A DNA stretch of 47,554 nucleotides from Candidatus Peregrinibacteria bacterium GW2011_GWF2_38_29 (GCA_000992695.1 LBUS01000012.1:1-47554); one strand, 5' to 3'. Shown: positions 2,445 through 10,920, counted from the stretch's first letter. Notes: generated by a model from the letters alone, not told the origin. Translations and numbers: made by a program.

Positions 2445-2468
2445 CAATTTTGCAGTCGAAAATCACGC

Positions 2469-5400
2469 TCATCCTCCTTTAGGCAATCTCTTTTTGAAAG
2501 CCTCAAAATCTCTTGCCAATCCCATCATTGACTTTCTGATAAGCTCATCCATCTCCGGCACAGCATCCGAATCGGCTTCTCCAAAAGTTTCTGAAAGTAC
2601 TCTTTTTTGGTCTTCAGAACCAAGCATAAAAGCTTTTTTCAAATGCTTACCCCACCATTCACCGCAATAAGATTCCAATCCATTGAGAAAGTTTTTCAAT
2701 CTGACTCCCGGCAATGTTCCCACCGCATCTCCATCTGTAAACACATAAAGCGCTGAAAGAAATCCTTTTCCGTGTTTTTTTAATGCCGCATTCAACAGTC
2801 TATTGCCCTCCAAAACAGCTTTTCCCATATCATTATTTCCTCTTGCAACAGTCGCCTCCATAAGTCGAGCTTTTATAGTTTTTTTATTTCCTGCGCCAAA
2901 ATCATACCTCTGCTTAGAACTATATTTTTGATCAAAACCCTTCACCAACTCCACGTTTTCGTCATACACCAAAATCGAGAAATCAATATACCCATATTCT
3001 TGTGAAATTTTCTCGAAAAGTTCAGCCCAAAAAATCAACAATTTTCTACAATCACGCATTCTGCCTGTCATGGAACCGCTTATGTCCAAAACCAATTCAG
3101 CCATGAACTTTGGCCTAACGGTAGACTTAATCACCAACGGATTTTTTAGCGTTCCAAAAAGAAGATTCACCGGTTTACTCATAGCTCTTCTATCAACTCT
3201 ACCTTTTCTGCTCACGTCATCTCCAAACTCCGGATCTTCAAATGTTGGCAATTTAGATGCGAAAAATTTATACCATTTTTCAACCAATGGCATTATTTCG
3301 CGCCTTATAGCATCATATTCATTATATAAAGCACTTTCATTGGAAATCCGCTGTTTAATACTCTCAAGACCCTCCGTGAATTCATGACTCTTTAAATCTT
3401 CGATCATTTTCTTTGCCTTTTCCTCATCAAGAAACCCTTCATCTCTCATTTTCTCTATTTTTTTCTTTAATTCATCCTTGAGTTTTTCTTTTTTTGCCTC
3501 CAAATCTTTTTTAAGTTGGTCTTTTATGTCCTCATCCAATTCCGCGTTTTCTAATTCATCTTCAGCGTCCTTGAGATCTTTAAAGTCTTTTGCTTCGGCT
3601 GTTTTATCTTTAATTTCTTTTGTTTTTTTTGCTTTTTCCGCACCTTCATCTTTTGCTCCTTCCACTTCCTCTTCCGTTTCTTTCCATTCTTCATCGCTCA
3701 CGGACTCACCGGACTCGCCTCCTTCTTGAGGTTCGCCATCCTGAGGCTCTCCGCTCTCGCCGCTTTCGCCGGATTCTCCGCTCTCACCATCCTGAGATTC
3801 GCCATCTTGTGGCTCTCCGCCTTCCTGCTTTTCACCTTTTTCGCCGGACTTCTTTTTCTTCTTATCCTTCTCCTCTTTCATCTTTTTCATTTTTTCTCTG
3901 GTTTCATCAGAAACGTCCGAGCCTTTTGTTTTGTCTTTTTTATCTCCTTTTTTTGTTTTTTCAAGCTGATCTTCGACTTTTTTCGCGACTTCTTCCGGAG
4001 TTGGAGCCTGATCTTCATCTCGAGGATCCTGTTCAGGCGCATCAATATCCGTATCTTCATCTTTTCCCCTTCCGCTTTCACCGCCTTCGTCAGAATCATC
4101 GGCTTTTTCAGGAGTTGAATCTATTGTTTGCCATTTATTTGCTTGCTCATTCCAAACTTCAGTCCATGCGTGACCTGTCCCGGAATGGATTATCGCTTTA
4201 CCGTCTTTAACCATATCAACACTGTGCCCCTCGACCAACCTTGAAGGAACTCCGGCTAATCTACAAAGCGCAATAAAATATGTTTGTGCAACATCACAGT
4301 CAACCTGTTTATGCGTTTCTATTTCCGCAAAATATCTTGAAGGATTTTTCTTATAAATAAGATTATATTTTGAATCGTTACTATATTCCAATTTCATAAC
4401 GTTTTTCATGTAATGCACGACTGCTTTTGCCTTTTCCACGTTTGTTTTTCCGCGAAGACTATAAATATAATTAAGTGTTGCTTGAGATAAAGACCCTGAA
4501 GAAATGTCCGCAGTCTCGTCTGCAACCGGTTTATTCGAATTTGCATTTGGCGTTTTTCCAAATCCGATTTCAAATTCATAAGCCGAACCGGTATTATTTT
4601 TTAAACAAAAACAGCCTTTTTCATCTTGATAAATTTCAATTCCCGAAGGAAGCGAAAACGGAGAAGGTGAATAATTCCTTGGCATAAAAATTGGCGCCAT
4701 GCCACCGGCACGACATTTTCCTCTTATCACATGCTCTTTTGATGCGAATCCTGAGTTCACTTTTTTGTATGACGACGTGTTGTCCCACTCAACTTCCCTT
4801 GTATTAAATTTTGCATAAATTTGCCCCTGATAATATCCGGTCAAATCGGGTTCGATTGTATAAATTGGGACTATTTCACTTTTTTCAGCTCCTTTTTTCA
4901 TTGGGTCCATCGAAGGAGAAAGTTTTTTCCTTACATCCGGCGCAACATCCCCTTGCGGTGGCTGAAAATCATTAAACATCTGTTCCAATTGATCCTTCAT
5001 CTCCGGCGGAAGCGCATCCGGATCTTCAAGAGCTTTTTCGATAAAATCATCCAATTTATCTTCCTCTTGCTGTCTCTTGATTTCATCAAAGCTGTCTCTG
5101 ATCTTTTCTGTAAGTTTTTTATGTGCTTTTGGATCACCCGTTTTAACATAATCCTGGAATGCATCTTCCAATGAATCTGCGATGTCGCATAATTCTTCTC
5201 CCACCTGACCTTCAAGCTTCCTTAAATCGTCCTTACTTATTATCCCCTGTTTTTTCATCCATCTTGCCTTCAAAACATCAAATATTTTTTGCGTCCTTTT
5301 TCTGTCCCCGGCTTCCGCCACGTTCTTTTTATGCTCAGCTTCAAGCGCTCTCTTTGCTTGTTGTTTGCCGGTTGTTCCAAGAGCTTTAACAAGATCTGAT

Positions 5401-5822
5401 TGTATTTTTGATCTTGCGATCGAAGAAAAAAGTTCCGTAGCAGTCGCCAAATCCGTATCTTTATCTTTTAATCCATAAAGAAATTCCGCGAATTGACCAT
5501 ATGGGAATCTTTCATAAAATTCTGCAACGTCTCTCACTTTTCCAATCAATCCACCAAGTCCCAACTCTTGAATTTCCGTTGCATCATAAGTGAATCCGTC
5601 CGGTTTCATCAGGCTTTGATCAACCTGCTCAGGACTTATTCTCCCTCTAAGGACATCCTCAAGCTGTTTTTCCCTTTCTGCATTATTTGGATAATGCGGT
5701 GCCCAAGATTTCCCGGGCAAAACTTTTAATTTTACGTCCTTAACATACGAGGCAACCTGAGTAGCCTGCCTTAGCTGCTCTCGAGTCAATCTCCCCGCAG
5801 ATGGTCGCAAGATATCTGACAT
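2469..5822 (-). CDS. Giant transglutaminase-like / von Willebrand factor A protein
   Basis: 1117 residues, no signal peptide or clear membrane segment. Residues 1-300 are helical and charged. Residues 310-440 look like a beta-rich domain. Residues 450-575 are a transglutaminase-like core with all three catalytic positions visible: Cys509 (QVDCDVAQ), His551 (GHAWTEVW) and Asp568 (TIDSTP). Residues 575-830 are a highly charged low-complexity and coiled-coil linker with GES/QDGE repeats. Residues 900-1060 are a VWA domain with the MIDAS motif DISGS (Asp913, Ser915, Ser917) and a later FTDGD. It starts 10 bases after the stop of the MoxR-like gene, on the same strand, so the two are cotranscribed. 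VWA proteins are the usual partners of MoxR AAA+ ATPases. The target of the peptidase/amidase or transglutaminase core is unknown. Confidence 0.8.
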   Translation of the reverse strand: MSDILRPSAGRLTREQLRQATQVASYVKDVKLKVLPGKSWAPHYPNNAEREKQLEDVLRGRISPEQVDQSLMKPDGFTYDATEIQELGLGGLIGKVRDVAEFYERFPYGQFAEFLYGLKDKDTDLATATELFSSIARSKIQSDLVKALGTTGKQQAKRALEAEHKKNVAEAGDRKRTQKIFDVLKARWMKKQGIISKDDLRKLEGQVGEELCDIADSLEDAFQDYVKTGDPKAHKKLTEKIRDSFDEIKRQQEEDKLDDFIEKALEDPDALPPEMKDQLEQMFNDFQPPQGDVAPDVRKKLSPSMDPMKKGAEKSEIVPIYTIEPDLTGYYQGQIYAKFNTREVEWDNTSSYKKVNSGFASKEHVIRGKCRAGGMAPIFMPRNYSPSPFSLPSGIEIYQDEKGCFCLKNNTGSAYEFEIGFGKTPNANSNKPVADETADISSGSLSQATLNYIYSLRGKTNVEKAKAVVHYMKNVMKLEYSNDSKYNLIYKKNPSRYFAEIETHKQVDCDVAQTYFIALCRLAGVPSRLVEGHSVDMVKDGKAIIHSGTGHAWTEVWNEQANKWQTIDSTPEKADDSDEGGESGRGKDEDTDIDAPEQDPRDEDQAPTPEEVAKKVEDQLEKTKKGDKKDKTKGSDVSDETREKMKKMKEEKDKKKKKSGEKGEKQEGGEPQDGESQDGESGESGESGESGEPQDGEPQEGGESGESVSDEEWKETEEEVEGAKDEGAEKAKKTKEIKDKTAEAKDFKDLKDAEDELENAELDEDIKDQLKKDLEAKKEKLKDELKKKIEKMRDEGFLDEEKAKKMIEDLKSHEFTEGLESIKQRISNESALYNEYDAIRREIMPLVEKWYKFFASKLPTFEDPEFGDDVSRKGRVDRRAMSKPVNLLFGTLKNPLVIKSTVRPKFMAELVLDISGSMTGRMRDCRKLLIFWAELFEKISQEYGYIDFSILVYDENVELVKGFDQKYSSKQRYDFGAGNKKTIKARLMEATVARGNNDMGKAVLEGNRLLNAALKKHGKGFLSALYVFTDGDAVGTLPGVRLKNFLNGLESYCGEWWGKHLKKAFMLGSEDQKRVLSETFGEADSDAVPEMDELIRKSMMGLARDFEAFKKRLPKGG

Positions 5823-5832
5823 TTTTTATTTA

Positions 5833-8800
5833 TTATGGCGTAGGTTCAGCAGGTTCAGTTGGCGCAATCGGTGCTCCTGTTGGTTTTTTCGTGCTCCAAC
5901 CCGTCAATTTTTCTTCCAAAGTTCTTGCTTCTTCTCCATTGAAAATATATGAACTATAAACCCTTCTAATAAATTTTCTTGCGGTTTCTTCAGCTTTACC
6001 TATATCTTCTTTTTCCGAAGGGCTCATGTGATTCAAAAGCCATGCGCATCTTCTCATTTCACGCATTGTAAATGGCTGACTGATCGTAAAATCATCAGGC
6101 CCGGTATTTGAGCCATCGATGCCTTTAATAAATGCTTCTCTTATTTCGTTACCAAAAGTTAAGAGCGCAAATATCACTTCTATATCAAATTTTCTTGTAG
6201 GCGTTAAAAGTGGGTTGCTCTCGTCTCCTCTGTTTATGTAAGCGTTCCACATATCAACAAATTCATTTTCGGAAATATCTCCAATCGTAAAATCTTCGAG
6301 CGATCTTATAGATCTCGCTGTTCTTAATGCTTCCGATGCGCCAAATGTTCCATCTTCTTTTTTAAATTTCGGATATCCGACTTTAATCGGAATCATTCTG
6401 GATCTTGTTGCAAACTGAGGCTTATAAGTTTCCGGATAATCGGGATTCATCGAAGAACATATGATTACCGATGGATCTGCTTTTACGATTCTTCCTTGGC
6501 TTGTCTTTAACGTGATTTGTCTTTTTTCATCAAAAAGAGAATGCAAGAATATCTGAGCTTGCTGTGGCATTGCGTTAAATTCATTAAAATACAAAACCGC
6601 ACCAGGTGTTTCCAAGGCCTTCACGATAACCGAATCCTCTTTTACCGTGTAACTCGCGCCACCATCAGCTGCAAGGGAAACATCTTGCGAAAGATCAAAT
6701 TCAGTTGTCCATTTTGAACAGTCAAATGTATATTTTGGCCTTTGCGTTTTTGCACAGAATATACTTACAAGAACATCTTTACCGGTTCCGGCATGTCCTT
6801 CCAAGGAAATCATTCCGTCTCTCAAGTCCAATGACATTTTTGCGTTCGTCGCAAAATCTTCAAGATTTTGCTCGGTTTCTTCATCCAATGTCCAATGTGG
6901 ATTGTCTGACATTTTTGGAATTTTTCCTTGCGAACCGTTTTTCATTTTTCCATTAATTATCCCCTCCTTAAAGCTTCTCATTTTTTGCCAAACATAAAGA
7001 CCTTCTTTGTCTAAAAACTCGTAATATTGTTTTGTCATCGCCCTTCTGTCTGAAAGAAGAGTTGCCCAAATGCTCCCCGGGCCTTTTAATCTAGCTGCTT
7101 CCACAATCCCCGGGAATTTTCCATCCGCTTCTTGCCACTCTTTTGCACTCTCTTTAATTTTCACATGCATTGCACGAATGTTTGTTTGGAATTCTTCATA
7201 TTTAGCCTGCACATCAGGAGCCAAACCAAAGTTCATATTTTTCACTTTTTCGATTATTTTTTTTGCTTCACGCACGGTCATGTATGTTTTACCAAAATCA
7301 AAATCCTCACCAAGAAGGCGCTCATTTGAAAATCCATATTTTCTTTTTTCTTCCTTGGTCAAAAATACTTCCTTTGTACTTCCAGACTTGTCTTTTGTTT
7401 TAAAAACCAATTCACACATATAATCATTTGGCTTTACTCCAGGACCTTTTGTCGCATCATCGACTTTAAAATCCAGCGTAACATTAACGCTAAGTTTCTC
7501 GGCTTTTGCCTCCCAAACGTCGAACATAAAATTGCCAAAGGCAACTTGATTTTTCCCTGTTGAAACTTCCGCTTTTTTCTCCATATTTCTTTTTGATTGG
7601 CTCTTAAGCGCCGCAATACCGATTTTTAATCTCATCGATAATGCATGAGCCTTATCCGGTTCATGATCTTCAATGGTTGATAAAACCTCAGTTATATTTC
7701 TATACAAAGGATGACTATCAACCCAAAGATTAATCTGATCTTTATCTGCGAACTCTCTCCTCTCAATCTTTTCGGAAAGATCTTCCATAAGTTGCGCAAT
7801 CAATAATTCCGCAGTTTTCACTTGTGAACCAATGCCTTCAGCAACATTCGCTTGGACTACGTCATATTGCTCTCTGAATTTTTTCTCATATTCTCTCTTT
7901 AATTTCGTAACCCTTTCGATCGCTTTGGCACCATGCTCCTGAAGTTTTGTTTGTTGAAGAGAAGCAAGCTTCATCTGCATTGTTATTTGCTCCACAATCT
8001 GCGGATAATCAATTTTCACCCACTCTTCCATCTCGCGCAATTTTGTAAAACCATCAAGAGTTGCTTTTACCCTATCAATAACCACATCAATCTCTTGAAT
8101 TAATCTATCCTCGTTTGCGTTTAATACTGTTCTTATTTTTCCATCAACATCATCACATAAGTCCAAAACCTCGCCTTTAAGAGACCTTTCGACTCCCGGT
8201 AAATTTGCATTTGTTCTAAGATAATCAATTCTGCTTTTCAATTTCAAAACGTCCGGAACAGTCATGGCGTCAATGCTATTTGCAACAACCCCAATTCTGG
8301 TTTTTTCGGATATAAGTTCGGGCGTAACAATATCAATCTCTCTTTGCGCGACATATTCCATTAATGACTTAAACATGGCCTCAACGACTTCCGTATCGGT
8401 AACAGCGATGCGTACCACGTCTTTATATTCTGCGATTTCTTTTCTTATTTCTTGAATTCCGGCGATTGTTGTCGCCGCGTCCAATTTTGGTTGAAAAGTT
8501 TCGAGGTTTTGTCGAGCCTGTTCTTGAACCATAGGCGAATTCACCACGATATTCGCCACTTTTGTAGAAGCAGTTGCTCCACTGGTAGCGGCTTTTCTTA
8601 AAGCCTCAAGATGTTCCAATTGTGCAGCCACTCTCAATGCTCTGGCCTTTTCCCTGGATTCATCGGCTTTAGCCGCATTTCTTTCCGCGCCACTTTTGAA
8701 TAAATTAAAGTTTGTAGATATCCTTCTAAGACTTCCATCGCTTACACCAACCAAAATGTTTTGATCGGCACCGTTTTCCTCGCAATATAATGTGCCTTCA

Positions 8801-9648
8801 AAATTGACATCCGGATCTTCGAAAACTTCTCCATATAATTCAAGTGGTCTGGATTGAAAATCATAAATATATAATTTATGACCACATCCAACCAGCAAAA
8901 AGTTTTCTTTGTTGTCCAGGCCAACGCCCGTGATTGGTTCCTGCACCCCTTCAGGCTTAATCGCTTCCGTCGTCCATTGCTTTGGGTCTGTAAATTTAGC
9001 GTCCAAAACATCAATACATCCACCTTCTGACGGTACATGAAAAGCCTTTTTATTCTTTATGCAATCAAACTTTGAACCAACGAAAACGACTTCCTCGTCT
9101 TTGTCTTTTGCTTTTTGATATACGTCGAAATAATTTACATCTTTGCTTTGAAATCCTCTTATTGCATCAATAACGCTTTTATCTGCCACCAATATTGAAT
9201 CTTTAATTCTTTTAAAAATAAGTGCTCTAGAAATTGCTACATTTTGATCGATTTCATATTCAAATATTCTACTATATATTGGCTGGTATTGCTTTGGAAT
9301 AATATTCTTTTCTATATACCATTTCACTCTAAAATTCGTCGTATCACTATAATCTGGGCCGTACATGCTGCTCGTCATATCTTTAATAAATTCCTCATAC
9401 TCTTGCTGAGTTAGAAATTCATTAAAATCACCTGTAATTTTTTGCATTATTTTACCATCAGGTCCGTACAACGTTCTAAAGCCGCCTCTCTTAACTAAGA
9501 CCCTTCCTTCACCATCTCGCTGTATAAAATCAGCCGATTTTCTTGCTTCCACACTGTTTTCCCTCTCAAATTCATTTCTATCCAATGTCGTAAGAACAAC
9601 GGGCATTTTTGGCTCGGCTTCAGGAGCACCTGTAGGCGTAGTATTCAT
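5833..9648 (-). CDS. MoxR-like AAA+ ATPase with very long N-terminal extension
   Basis: 1271 residues, about four times a normal MoxR protein. Residues 1-310 are beta-rich, with segments such as NFLLVGCGHKLYIYDF that resemble propeller blades. Residues 320-680 are mainly helical and coiled coil. Residues 920-1240 form the AAA+ module: Walker A GHAGTGKD (951-958), Walker B AVLYFNEFN (1017-1025), sensor 1 Asn1068 (SSMNP) and arginine-finger region ATRSRM (about 1081-1085). The usual Walker B Asp is Asn1022 here, although Glu1023 is kept. Both termini are Pro/Thr/Ala-rich. It is the first gene of a two-gene unit with the transglutaminase-VWA protein, behind the promoter at 9716-9744. By analogy with MoxR/RavA systems it should remodel or activate a partner protein. 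Confidence 0.8.
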   Translation of the reverse strand: MNTTPTGAPEAEPKMPVVLTTLDRNEFERENSVEARKSADFIQRDGEGRVLVKRGGFRTLYGPDGKIMQKITGDFNEFLTQQEYEEFIKDMTSSMYGPDYSDTTNFRVKWYIEKNIIPKQYQPIYSRIFEYEIDQNVAISRALIFKRIKDSILVADKSVIDAIRGFQSKDVNYFDVYQKAKDKDEEVVFVGSKFDCIKNKKAFHVPSEGGCIDVLDAKFTDPKQWTTEAIKPEGVQEPITGVGLDNKENFLLVGCGHKLYIYDFQSRPLELYGEVFEDPDVNFEGTLYCEENGADQNILVGVSDGSLRRISTNFNLFKSGAERNAAKADESREKARALRVAAQLEHLEALRKAATSGATASTKVANIVVNSPMVQEQARQNLETFQPKLDAATTIAGIQEIRKEIAEYKDVVRIAVTDTEVVEAMFKSLMEYVAQREIDIVTPELISEKTRIGVVANSIDAMTVPDVLKLKSRIDYLRTNANLPGVERSLKGEVLDLCDDVDGKIRTVLNANEDRLIQEIDVVIDRVKATLDGFTKLREMEEWVKIDYPQIVEQITMQMKLASLQQTKLQEHGAKAIERVTKLKREYEKKFREQYDVVQANVAEGIGSQVKTAELLIAQLMEDLSEKIERREFADKDQINLWVDSHPLYRNITEVLSTIEDHEPDKAHALSMRLKIGIAALKSQSKRNMEKKAEVSTGKNQVAFGNFMFDVWEAKAEKLSVNVTLDFKVDDATKGPGVKPNDYMCELVFKTKDKSGSTKEVFLTKEEKRKYGFSNERLLGEDFDFGKTYMTVREAKKIIEKVKNMNFGLAPDVQAKYEEFQTNIRAMHVKIKESAKEWQEADGKFPGIVEAARLKGPGSIWATLLSDRRAMTKQYYEFLDKEGLYVWQKMRSFKEGIINGKMKNGSQGKIPKMSDNPHWTLDEETEQNLEDFATNAKMSLDLRDGMISLEGHAGTGKDVLVSIFCAKTQRPKYTFDCSKWTTEFDLSQDVSLAADGGASYTVKEDSVIVKALETPGAVLYFNEFNAMPQQAQIFLHSLFDEKRQITLKTSQGRIVKADPSVIICSSMNPDYPETYKPQFATRSRMIPIKVGYPKFKKEDGTFGASEALRTARSIRSLEDFTIGDISENEFVDMWNAYINRGDESNPLLTPTRKFDIEVIFALLTFGNEIREAFIKGIDGSNTGPDDFTISQPFTMREMRRCAWLLNHMSPSEKEDIGKAEETARKFIRRVYSSYIFNGEEARTLEEKLTGWSTKKPTGAPIAPTEPAEPTP

Positions 9649-9715
9649 ATTTGTTTTTGTTTAATTTTTATTTTTATATATTTTTAAGCGCACTTGTGCG
9701 CACTCAAATCTTAAT

Positions 9716-9744
9716 ATTATAGCACGAAAAAGCGCTTTTAACAA
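9716..9744 (-). promoter_or_regulatory. Promoter of the MoxR/transglutaminase-VWA unit with embedded palindrome
   Basis: On the minus strand TTGTTA (9739-9744) and TATAAT (9716-9721) are separated by exactly 17 bases. The spacer contains the perfect palindrome AAAAGCGCTTTT (9728-9739), a candidate operator. A second hairpin-forming palindrome, GCGCACTTGTGCGC (9688-9701), lies in the predicted 5' untranslated region. The ATG follows about 60 bases after the expected start of transcription. Confidence 0.7.
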
Positions 9745-9807
9745 TGCAAAAGTGCATAAAGATTGCCGGTAAATGCCAAGACGTTATGGCACTATAAAAA
9801 TAGCCAA

Positions 9808-10371
9808 TTAGCCCCTTCCATAATACGTTAAAATCGTTTCATAAAATCTTCCTCGTCCTCCAACTCTTGTTGCCGCCAATGTTTTAGCTCTATCCAATAT
9901 GTTGCTTGATTTTAATAAAAGATTTAAATCCGTATCCAATCTTCCCGCAATCTCCATGGCTTTCGCTCTATCTATAACCTCACCTCTAGCTTTATATTGC
10001 AAAACAATGCCTCCACAAACGTCCTCTATAAGCCAATCCAATCTGTCCAAAGCCTCTCCATTGCCCCCGTTATTTTCCGTTAAATTGTCTCTTATAAAAT
10101 CAAATATAAGACATGCTGCGCCATTTCCGTCCGGTCCTTCCAGATACCCTTGCGGATCTTCACATTCTTCCGGATCAGCGATATCAACCGCATTAAACCA
10201 TGCCAAAAGAGCCTTTTCCGTTCCTTTCGGCGCAGGAATTGAATCGTCCGGCAAACAACGCTCTTTCCATATTGTTGATCGCCCGTCCTGCCTTTTAACT
10301 GCTCTAAGCCTTAACGATTCAAGCTCGCGTTCTGACGGTGTTCCTTCAGCTGAAACTGGTAATCCTTCCAT
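9808..10371 (-). CDS. Uncharacterised soluble protein, 187 aa
   Basis: No recognised domain. The protein is acidic to neutral, with no membrane segment or signal peptide. It has a Leu/Ala/Asp-rich helical appearance in its C-terminal half (GRLDTDLNLLLKSSNILDRAKTLAATRVGG). It lies between the 152-aa gene and the giant MoxR gene on the same strand. A TATAAT box (minus strand, 10396-10401) overlaps the end of the upstream gene, so it may have its own promoter. Its place beside the MoxR/VWA pair makes it a possible accessory subunit, but this is only context. Confidence 0.6.
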   Translation of the reverse strand: MEGLPVSAEGTPSERELESLRLRAVKRQDGRSTIWKERCLPDDSIPAPKGTEKALLAWFNAVDIADPEECEDPQGYLEGPDGNGAACLIFDFIRDNLTENNGGNGEALDRLDWLIEDVCGGIVLQYKARGEVIDRAKAMEIAGRLDTDLNLLLKSSNILDRAKTLAATRVGGRGRFYETILTYYGRG

Positions 10372-10396
10372 ATTTTAATTTTTAAATAAATTAATA

Positions 10397-10855
10397 TTAT
10401 ACACTAATATCACGAATATCACGCATTGTCGCTTGCATAATAGCCTCGCTCACTCTTCTACCTAGCGCCTTATTAAATAATCTGTTTTTGAATTCACCTT
10501 CTTGAATTAAAGTCCTCAACATATCAACTCGTCCTTTTTTTTCTTCTCCCTGAGGTTTTTTTGCCAATACCATATCGCAAAAAACACTAACAATCACAGG
10601 CGCATTATTTGCAGGAACATAACTTCCAAAAATTTCGCCAATTTCATCGCCAATTTCAGCTAATCTTTCTCTGACTTGTACAAATTTTTGCATTAAAGGA
10701 CTTGTTTCCCAACTTTGCCCTTTATCGTGCTCCATTGTTAAAAATCCTATCAAATTAGGATCTGTCAAAAATGCGTCCGCCTTTTTGCGTATAATTCTTG
10801 AATCTGCTTCCGCTTGATCTGCGTCGCCCCATGGTCCAAATGATACTGTGTTCAT
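10397..10855 (-). CDS. Uncharacterised soluble protein, 152 aa
   Basis: No recognised domain. It is mostly helical, with a central segment resembling a helical bundle (VQVRERLAEIGDEIGEIFGSYV) and no membrane segment. A strong promoter (10886-10914) lies directly upstream, and the next gene on the strand starts 25 bases after its stop. With the 187-aa gene it probably forms a small transcription unit that leads towards the MoxR/VWA pair. Confidence 0.6.
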   Translation of the reverse strand: MNTVSFGPWGDADQAEADSRIIRKKADAFLTDPNLIGFLTMEHDKGQSWETSPLMQKFVQVRERLAEIGDEIGEIFGSYVPANNAPVIVSVFCDMVLAKKPQGEEKKGRVDMLRTLIQEGEFKNRLFNKALGRRVSEAIMQATMRDIRDISV

Positions 10856-10885
10856 CTTTAACCTATTATTAAATTCTGGAGGTTG

Positions 10886-10914
10886 ATTTTAACAATAACC
10901 CTATTTTAAGTCAA
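10886..10914 (-). promoter_or_regulatory. Promoter of the 152-aa gene
   Basis: On the minus strand TTGACT (10909-10914) and TAAAAT (10886-10891) have a 17-base spacer. The -10 box ends 30 bases before the ATG at 10855. No Shine-Dalgarno sequence lies in the leader. Confidence 0.65.
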
Positions 10915-10920
10915 TGCTAA

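Follow-up and report, generated by a model that had tools for sequence, protein, structure and literature searches.

A CbbQ/NorQ-clade AAA+ protein with an unusual ATP site and its transglutaminase-VWA partner in Peregrinibacteria and related Patescibacteria

Introduction

TgpA is the bacterial transglutaminase of MoxR-DUF58-TgpA gene clusters. In the NorQ/NorD couple of a AAA+ and a VWA protein, NorD is composed of an N-terminal domain, a linker and a VWA domain, and its finger is located inside the NorQ pore; a twist of the VWA domain against the N-terminal domain, driven by ATP turnover, has been proposed to stretch the linker (PMC13036017). In the candidate phyla radiation (CPR), fusions of a C-type-lectin-like domain with a AAA domain (CLec-AAA) are cited as the commonest target architecture of diversity-generating retroelements (DGRs), and clade-2 DGR targets are described as usually being without recognisable domains, according to the sections of these papers considered here (PMC10907252, citing Paul et al. 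2017; Roux 2021, PMC8144416). A transglutaminase-VWA partner goes unmentioned in the considered sections of both papers and of a study on MoxR-vWA ternary conflict systems (Kaur 2020, PMC7159879). Here we report on such a partner and its AAA+ protein, encoded by adjacent genes of the tiny-genome bacterium Candidatus Peregrinibacteria bacterium GW2011_GWF2_38_29 on a stretch of 47,554 nucleotides (LBUS01000012.1:1-47554), the whole of which is called the window in the following. We regard the pair as a new form of AAA+/VWA machine, with an enzyme on board the VWA partner; it belongs to a family in Patescibacteria that is often joined to DGR-diversified recognition domains, and the GW2011_GWF2_38_29 pair is a DGR-less member of this family with an unusual ATP site. 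On balance, we favour the reading that the pair is an accessory, ATP-driven remodelling machine of two proteins resembling NorQ/NorD, whose VWA partner has its own enzyme and which probably acts in recognition-triggered protein processing in conflict.

Results

Organization of the gene pair and its occurrence in relatives

All window features described here are located on the minus strand. The giant AAA+ protein P0001 (1271 amino acids) is encoded by an open reading frame (ORF) at 5833-9648 and the transglutaminase-VWA protein P0002 (1117 amino acids) by an ORF at 2469-5822, with a gap of 10 bp between them (5823-5832); the ORF calls thereby reproduce the coordinates, lengths and spacing given in a first-pass annotation made from the sequence alone. 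This annotation had also placed both genes under one promoter, and a single candidate promoter, TTGTTA-17-TATAAT, does occur 5' of the AAA gene (9744-9716), but the promoter scan as a whole yielded no more matches in this region than chance would give, 21 against 20.8 expected. The AAA gene comes first in this pair; the usual order in relatives is transglutaminase-VWA first.

The pair has a sister locus (L084; loci in relatives carry L numbers) in Candidatus Peregrinibacteria GW2011_GWC2_39_14, where both proteins are about 93-94% identical to those of the window. Outside the window's genus, 12 of 380 sampled Patescibacteria genomes carry transglutaminase-VWA fusions, at 13 loci in total, and such fusions also occur in genomes named as Berkelbacteria, Uhrbacteria, Falkowbacteria, Moraniibacteriota, Kaiserbacteria, Doudnabacteria, Gracilibacteria and others, so that the fusion is not special to a single genome but a family across Patescibacteria. 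The adjacency that had been expected in relatives was found as well: phylum-wide, no more than one gene lies between the fusion gene and a AAA gene at 22 of the 24 transglutaminase-VWA loci whose contig allows an adjacency test, the exceptions being L039 and L044. AAA genes of the window's subgroup are present with E ≤1e-49 in 17 of 353 genomes of the class, followed by a gap to 1e-16; the AAA and VWA genes are immediate neighbours at 11 class loci (the window, L103-L107, L111, L115-L117 and L146), and at 3 further class loci they lie within five genes of each other. Searches of viral contigs, performed with a single protein and with the family alignment, and of plasmids returned no relatives, and the only match in the phages searched was the AAA domain of Gordonia phages at 26% identity.

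P0002 combines a transglutaminase core and a VWA domain

Pfam assigns Transglut_core to residues 459-568 of P0002 (E 3.5e-11), and the triad C509, H551 and D568 is invariant in 13 homologues. For the single sequence, the VWA match stays below threshold (E 0.03); homologues, however, match clearly (VWA_2, 1.5e-8 in L106), a VWA profile search leads to the VWA domain of ITIH4 (7.7e-6), and the metal-ion-dependent adhesion site (MIDAS), D913-x-S915-x-S917 with D1030, is invariant in 15 homologues. A model of the full chain (mean pLDDT 71, predicted local distance difference test) was compared with the Protein Data Bank by Foldseek. The best match is the TgpA transglutaminase (6g49, E 9e-10), and NorD in NorQD (9qhe, E 3.5e-7) and the MIDAS domain of Rea1 (6qt8, E 1.4e-6) are matched as well. 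Structure prediction had been named as the test for this protein: because of these matches both folds can be stated to be present, and the complete transglutaminase triad, the MIDAS-bearing VWA domain and their union in one chain with a long charged linker in between all hold.

From the N-terminus, P0002 consists of a helical domain (residues 33-280, 4983-5726), which by alignment and model is a degenerate counterpart of an HExxH metallopeptidase-like domain of relatives, a beta domain (residues 320-421, 4560-4865) that falls within the TgpA match of 288 columns, the transglutaminase core (residues 447-571, 4110-4484), a charged and partly disordered linker of 320 residues (575-894, 3141-4100), and the VWA domain (residues 895-1112, 2487-3140) with the MIDAS sequence DISGS. 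Neither a signal peptide nor hydrophobic stretches typical of membrane segments are evident in P0001 or P0002.

The AAA+ domain of P0001 and its altered Walker site

AAA_5 is matched by residues 949-1085 of P0001 (E 1.6e-12), within a AAA+ core of the CbbQ/NorQ-midasin type (residues 944-1199, 6052-6819). The MoxR family proper, AAA_3 (PF07726), found no match in the whole genome, with 13 of 14 controls being positive. The nearest solved relatives are NorQ and CbbQ, followed by CobS (NorQ 2.1e-8, phmmer), and a profile of 16 AAA sequences retrieves CbbQ (7e-28), NorQ (8e-24) and repeated midasin modules. Because AAA_3 is unmatched and NorQ, CbbQ and midasin are nearest, the domain is classified by sequence as dynein/NorQ-type, on the CbbQ/NorQ side of the wider MoxR clade; the earlier designation as MoxR-like is thus appropriate for the broad clade but not for MoxR in the strict sense. 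Rea1/midasin was considered as a direct orthologue and rejected, since the profile matches are single AAA modules of a six-module protein, which indicates membership in the same clade only. N-terminal of the core, a low-confidence model (pLDDT 50, predicted template modelling score 0.30) has beta strands at residues 200-318 (8695-9051) and helices thereafter, in a long helical or coiled region of residues 320-700 (7549-8691), of which the model reaches residue 480. The beta-rich region is possibly a repeat or propeller domain, but at these scores the propeller-like N-terminus proposed earlier is not established.

The consensus motifs GxxGxGK[ST] for Walker A and hhhhDE for Walker B are not matched by P0001, which instead has GHAGTGKD (residues 951-958, 6775-6798), with Asp replacing Ser/Thr, and FNE, with Asn replacing the Walker B Asp in Asn-Glu (residues 1022-1023, 6580-6585). 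Eighteen sequences were compared, namely 16 aligned class members, the sister and L146. The Ser/Thr position of the P-loop is Asp in 6 (all from different genomes), Asn in 10 and Thr in 2 of the 18; GKD is paired with NE in Walker B in 6/6, GKN with DE in 10/10, and both Thr forms with Asp, so that exactly one acidic residue is present at the two Mg positions in every member (18/18). The P-loop Lys, the Walker B Glu (E123), the sensor-1 Asn (N168) and the arginine finger (R184; alignment numbering) are invariant in the 16 aligned members. In a tree calculated with both columns masked, the Asp/Asn group forms a single clade (92/89), which argues for one coupled change retained over long divergence rather than many independent ones. 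This covariation of D/N with N/D at Mg-ligand positions, in a AAA+ site that is otherwise intact, is a rare and directly testable natural rearrangement of the Walker site.

Exchange of the on-board enzyme

Within the window's class, those VWA partners that have no transglutaminase (L106, L107, L109, L110, L111 and L113) carry an N-terminal HExxH followed by a [VF]ED motif. Transglutaminase-bearing partners either retain the N-terminal domain with HExxH lost, as in the window (VRDVAEFYERF) and L103-L105, or, as in L115-L117, do not have the HExxH-type domain at all. HExxH is therefore present in 6/6 partners without and in 0/8 partners with a transglutaminase (Fisher p 0.0003, uncorrected for relatedness), two switches are required on the tree, and the two domains are never both intact in one VWA partner. 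This exchange points to interchangeable processing enzymes and tells which kind of output should be tested for. The HExxH-type partners have no match to a Pfam metallopeptidase family, so that the domain is called metallopeptidase-like from its motif and position.

Further loci illustrate the variability of the partner protein. At L147 (16075-18135), a protein with HEGAH and a CobT-type VWA domain (CobT_C, 1e-11) is encoded near a AAA gene in the same order, which may represent a more ordinary, ancestor-like form. In another Peregrinibacteria genome (L085, 7946-11305), the beta-domain/transglutaminase module is found in a 1119-amino-acid protein beside ATP-grasp-like genes, with no recognisable VWA domain and no AAA neighbour, indicating that the module is shuffled. 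At L044 (7536-10937), the VWA half of the transglutaminase-VWA gene turns into serine-recombinase-like sequence right after the start of the MIDAS, possibly by an insertion or as an assembly chimera. At L116 (4350-7058), translation under code 25 gives Arg (HARTEIRD) where Trp is otherwise conserved (HAWTEVWD). A reassignment of CGA/CGG to Trp has been reported for Absconditabacteria, and the reading at L116 would fit it.

Diversity-generating retroelements at related loci

Pairs of template and variable repeats of 68-128 bp are present at 11 loci of relatives (L034, L037, L040, L041, L042, L043, L045, L047, L066, L070 and L078), and 295 of their 312 mismatches fall on template adenines, which make up 25% of the template. 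DGR-type reverse transcriptase genes (motif e.g. LPIGNLTSQ) are located beside most of these loci and beside L083, so that a DGR reverse transcriptase, a repeat pair or both occur at 12 related loci. The variable repeat is found in the AAA gene, in a separate gene with the same tail, or in both, in each case at the 3' end; this tail is lectin-like, ends in '...GRLVYVGYFESGG...LGVSFSRS', and that of the AAA protein is the usual target. The CPR is rich in DGRs, and the occurrence of a conserved AAA/transglutaminase-VWA pair beside such targets offers a concrete hypothesis for what the hypervariable domains feed into. The window AAA protein has no lectin tail.

Other neighbours were observed as well. 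In Gracilibacteria (L077, 14913-18665), tandem LRR_6 proteins, three of them full-length with a common helical N-terminus and one shorter, are encoded immediately downstream of the transglutaminase-VWA/AAA pair, at the place that lectin-like targets take in relatives, and L039 has a repeat protein beside the locus. At L065 (16546-17534), the DGR reverse transcriptase is split over two successive ORFs, each sharing 83-86% identity with the intact enzyme of L034, possibly owing to a frameshift.

The pair lies in an accessory island

Together with two small genes, the pair makes up a four-gene block between a glycosyltransferase gene and purN (2445-10920). This block is an accessory island, because in G002, a genome of the same genus, only 217 bp separate the two flanking genes and the four island genes are absent from this site, which in G004 and G005 is taken by one different gene. 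The two small genes, which travel in the same island, encode fast-evolving proteins of 187 amino acids (9808-10371) and 152 amino acids (10397-10855) that belong to no known family. They had been suggested to accompany the pair across relatives, but they were found only here and in the sister, and were rejected as conserved partners. While the AAA and transglutaminase-VWA genes of the island are 91-94% identical to those of the sister, the segment of the two small genes (window 9752-10866, L049 1556-2771) has no aligned DNA between flanks of 89-91% identity, and the two small proteins are only 27% and 37% identical over part of their length; from sequence comparison, the segment looks like a fast-changing or swapped cassette.

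Discussion

The proposal that the pair forms a dedicated protein-processing machine is still the best class of explanation, to which retroelement-diversified recognition domains in relatives can now be added. In the working model, P0001 would assemble as a ring on which the VWA domain docks, and the MIDAS would grip the client by an acidic side chain. Driven by ATP turnover, the VWA domain would twist against the front part of P0002 and the long charged linker would be stretched, as has been reported for NorQD, so that the client would be opened or presented to the cysteine enzyme with transglutaminase fold that lies in this front part. This enzyme, best read as an on-board cysteine peptidase/transglutaminase, would most likely cleave the client, the alternatives being deamidation or cross-linking. 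In relatives, recognition would be the task of C-type-lectin-like tails, hypermutated by DGRs, that sit on the AAA protein or are encoded by adjacent genes; neighbouring leucine-rich repeat (LRR) or repeat proteins are candidates with weaker evidence. The window pair may rely on the extensive N-terminal portion of P0001, on the two rapidly changing small genes, or on both. The accessory pair is probably conflict-related, and its likely role would be recognition-triggered protein processing in defence against mobile elements or competitors. The patchy distribution with an empty site and the lack of membrane-type segments in either protein support such a machine. More broadly, and more tentatively, the family could be a so far unnamed recognition-driven protein-processing system of Patescibacteria, composed of a CbbQ/NorQ-clade ATPase, a VWA partner whose built-in protease can be exchanged (transglutaminase fold or HExxH metallopeptidase) and variable recognition modules that plug in (lectin tails mutated by DGRs, arrays of LRRs, repeat proteins or replaceable small genes), with a Gracilibacteria/Peregrinibacteria branch in which the acidic Mg ligand has moved from Walker B to Walker A, giving a charge-swapped Walker site.

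Several observations weigh against the processing machine proposed here. No DGR was found in the window's own genome, whose only reverse transcriptase match has a motif of the group II intron type, and a DGR-driven window system was rejected for this reason; the N-terminal architecture of its AAA protein also differs from that of the DGR-linked ones. Among the neighbours of the pair, VMAP, iSTAND, FtsH or a beta-propeller component had no Pfam match and there is no known third component, and PADLOC-DB 2.0 returned no match for P0001-P0004 at E 0.01; the defence role of the family is inferred. Peptidase and transglutaminase activity of P0002 are indistinguishable from sequence, and the Walker residue changes could mean weak or absent ATP hydrolysis.

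The last point leads to the least probable of the alternatives, a AAA domain that serves as a non-hydrolysing scaffold or pure nucleotide-binding switch. Both Mg-site residues are altered in the window protein, as this pseudo-ATPase requires, but the invariant P-loop Lys, Walker B Glu, sensor-1 Asn and arginine finger argue against it, as does the single acidic residue conserved at the Mg positions, which is expected under selection for Mg-ATP binding. Quite improbable, too, is a machine for cross-linking or for surface or cell-wall assembly, i.e. a soluble analogue of TgpA of the MoxR/DUF58 clusters: TgpA is indeed the best Foldseek match and the Cys-His-Asp triad is invariant, but neither protein has an evident signal peptide or membrane segment and the alternation between transglutaminase and HExxH metallopeptidase-like domains speaks for hydrolysis. 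A strict maturation chaperone of the NorQD/CobST type, which would remodel one metalloenzyme or complex for cofactor insertion and use the transglutaminase fold as a clamp or one-time trimmer, deserves somewhat more attention but is still unlikely. NorQ/CbbQ and NorD are the nearest AAA and VWA relatives, and the related HExxH-VWA protein of L147 matches CobT_C; against this stand the absence of the island from the same site in sister genomes, the rarity in the class (21 of 353 genomes), the lack of a client enzyme gene beside the pair, and the DGR-hypermutated tails of relatives, which would be senseless for a single fixed client.

Comparison with known systems

The likeness to NorQ/NorD and CbbQ/CbbO lies in AAA domains related by sequence, VWA domains related by fold and adjacent genes, and P0002 shares with NorD the plan of N-terminal domain, linker and VWA domain. 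Different here are the transglutaminase-fold enzyme in the partner, an N-terminal extension of 940 amino acids on the AAA protein, the altered Walker residues, and the location in an accessory island with no metalloenzyme beside the pair. With TgpA, P0002 has in common the fold, the Cys-His-Asp triad and a general linkage to a MoxR-clade ATPase and a VWA-like protein; in contrast to TgpA, it is soluble, has no membrane segments and is fused with a NorD-like VWA domain in one chain. The relatives found here are of the kind of the DGR-diversified CLec-AAA proteins of CPR bacteria, which, in the cited account considered here (PMC10907252), are AAA proteins with a hypervariable C-terminal lectin-like domain, whereas the window member is without DGR and lectin tail. 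The MoxR-vWA ternary conflict systems, as far as covered by the sections of the study considered here (Kaur 2020, PMC7159879), are alike in their AAA+/VWA couple, their peptidase domains and their patchy distribution, and some possess DGR-diversified FGS domains; they differ in that here the enzyme resides on the VWA chain itself and the diversified domain of relatives is found on the AAA side.

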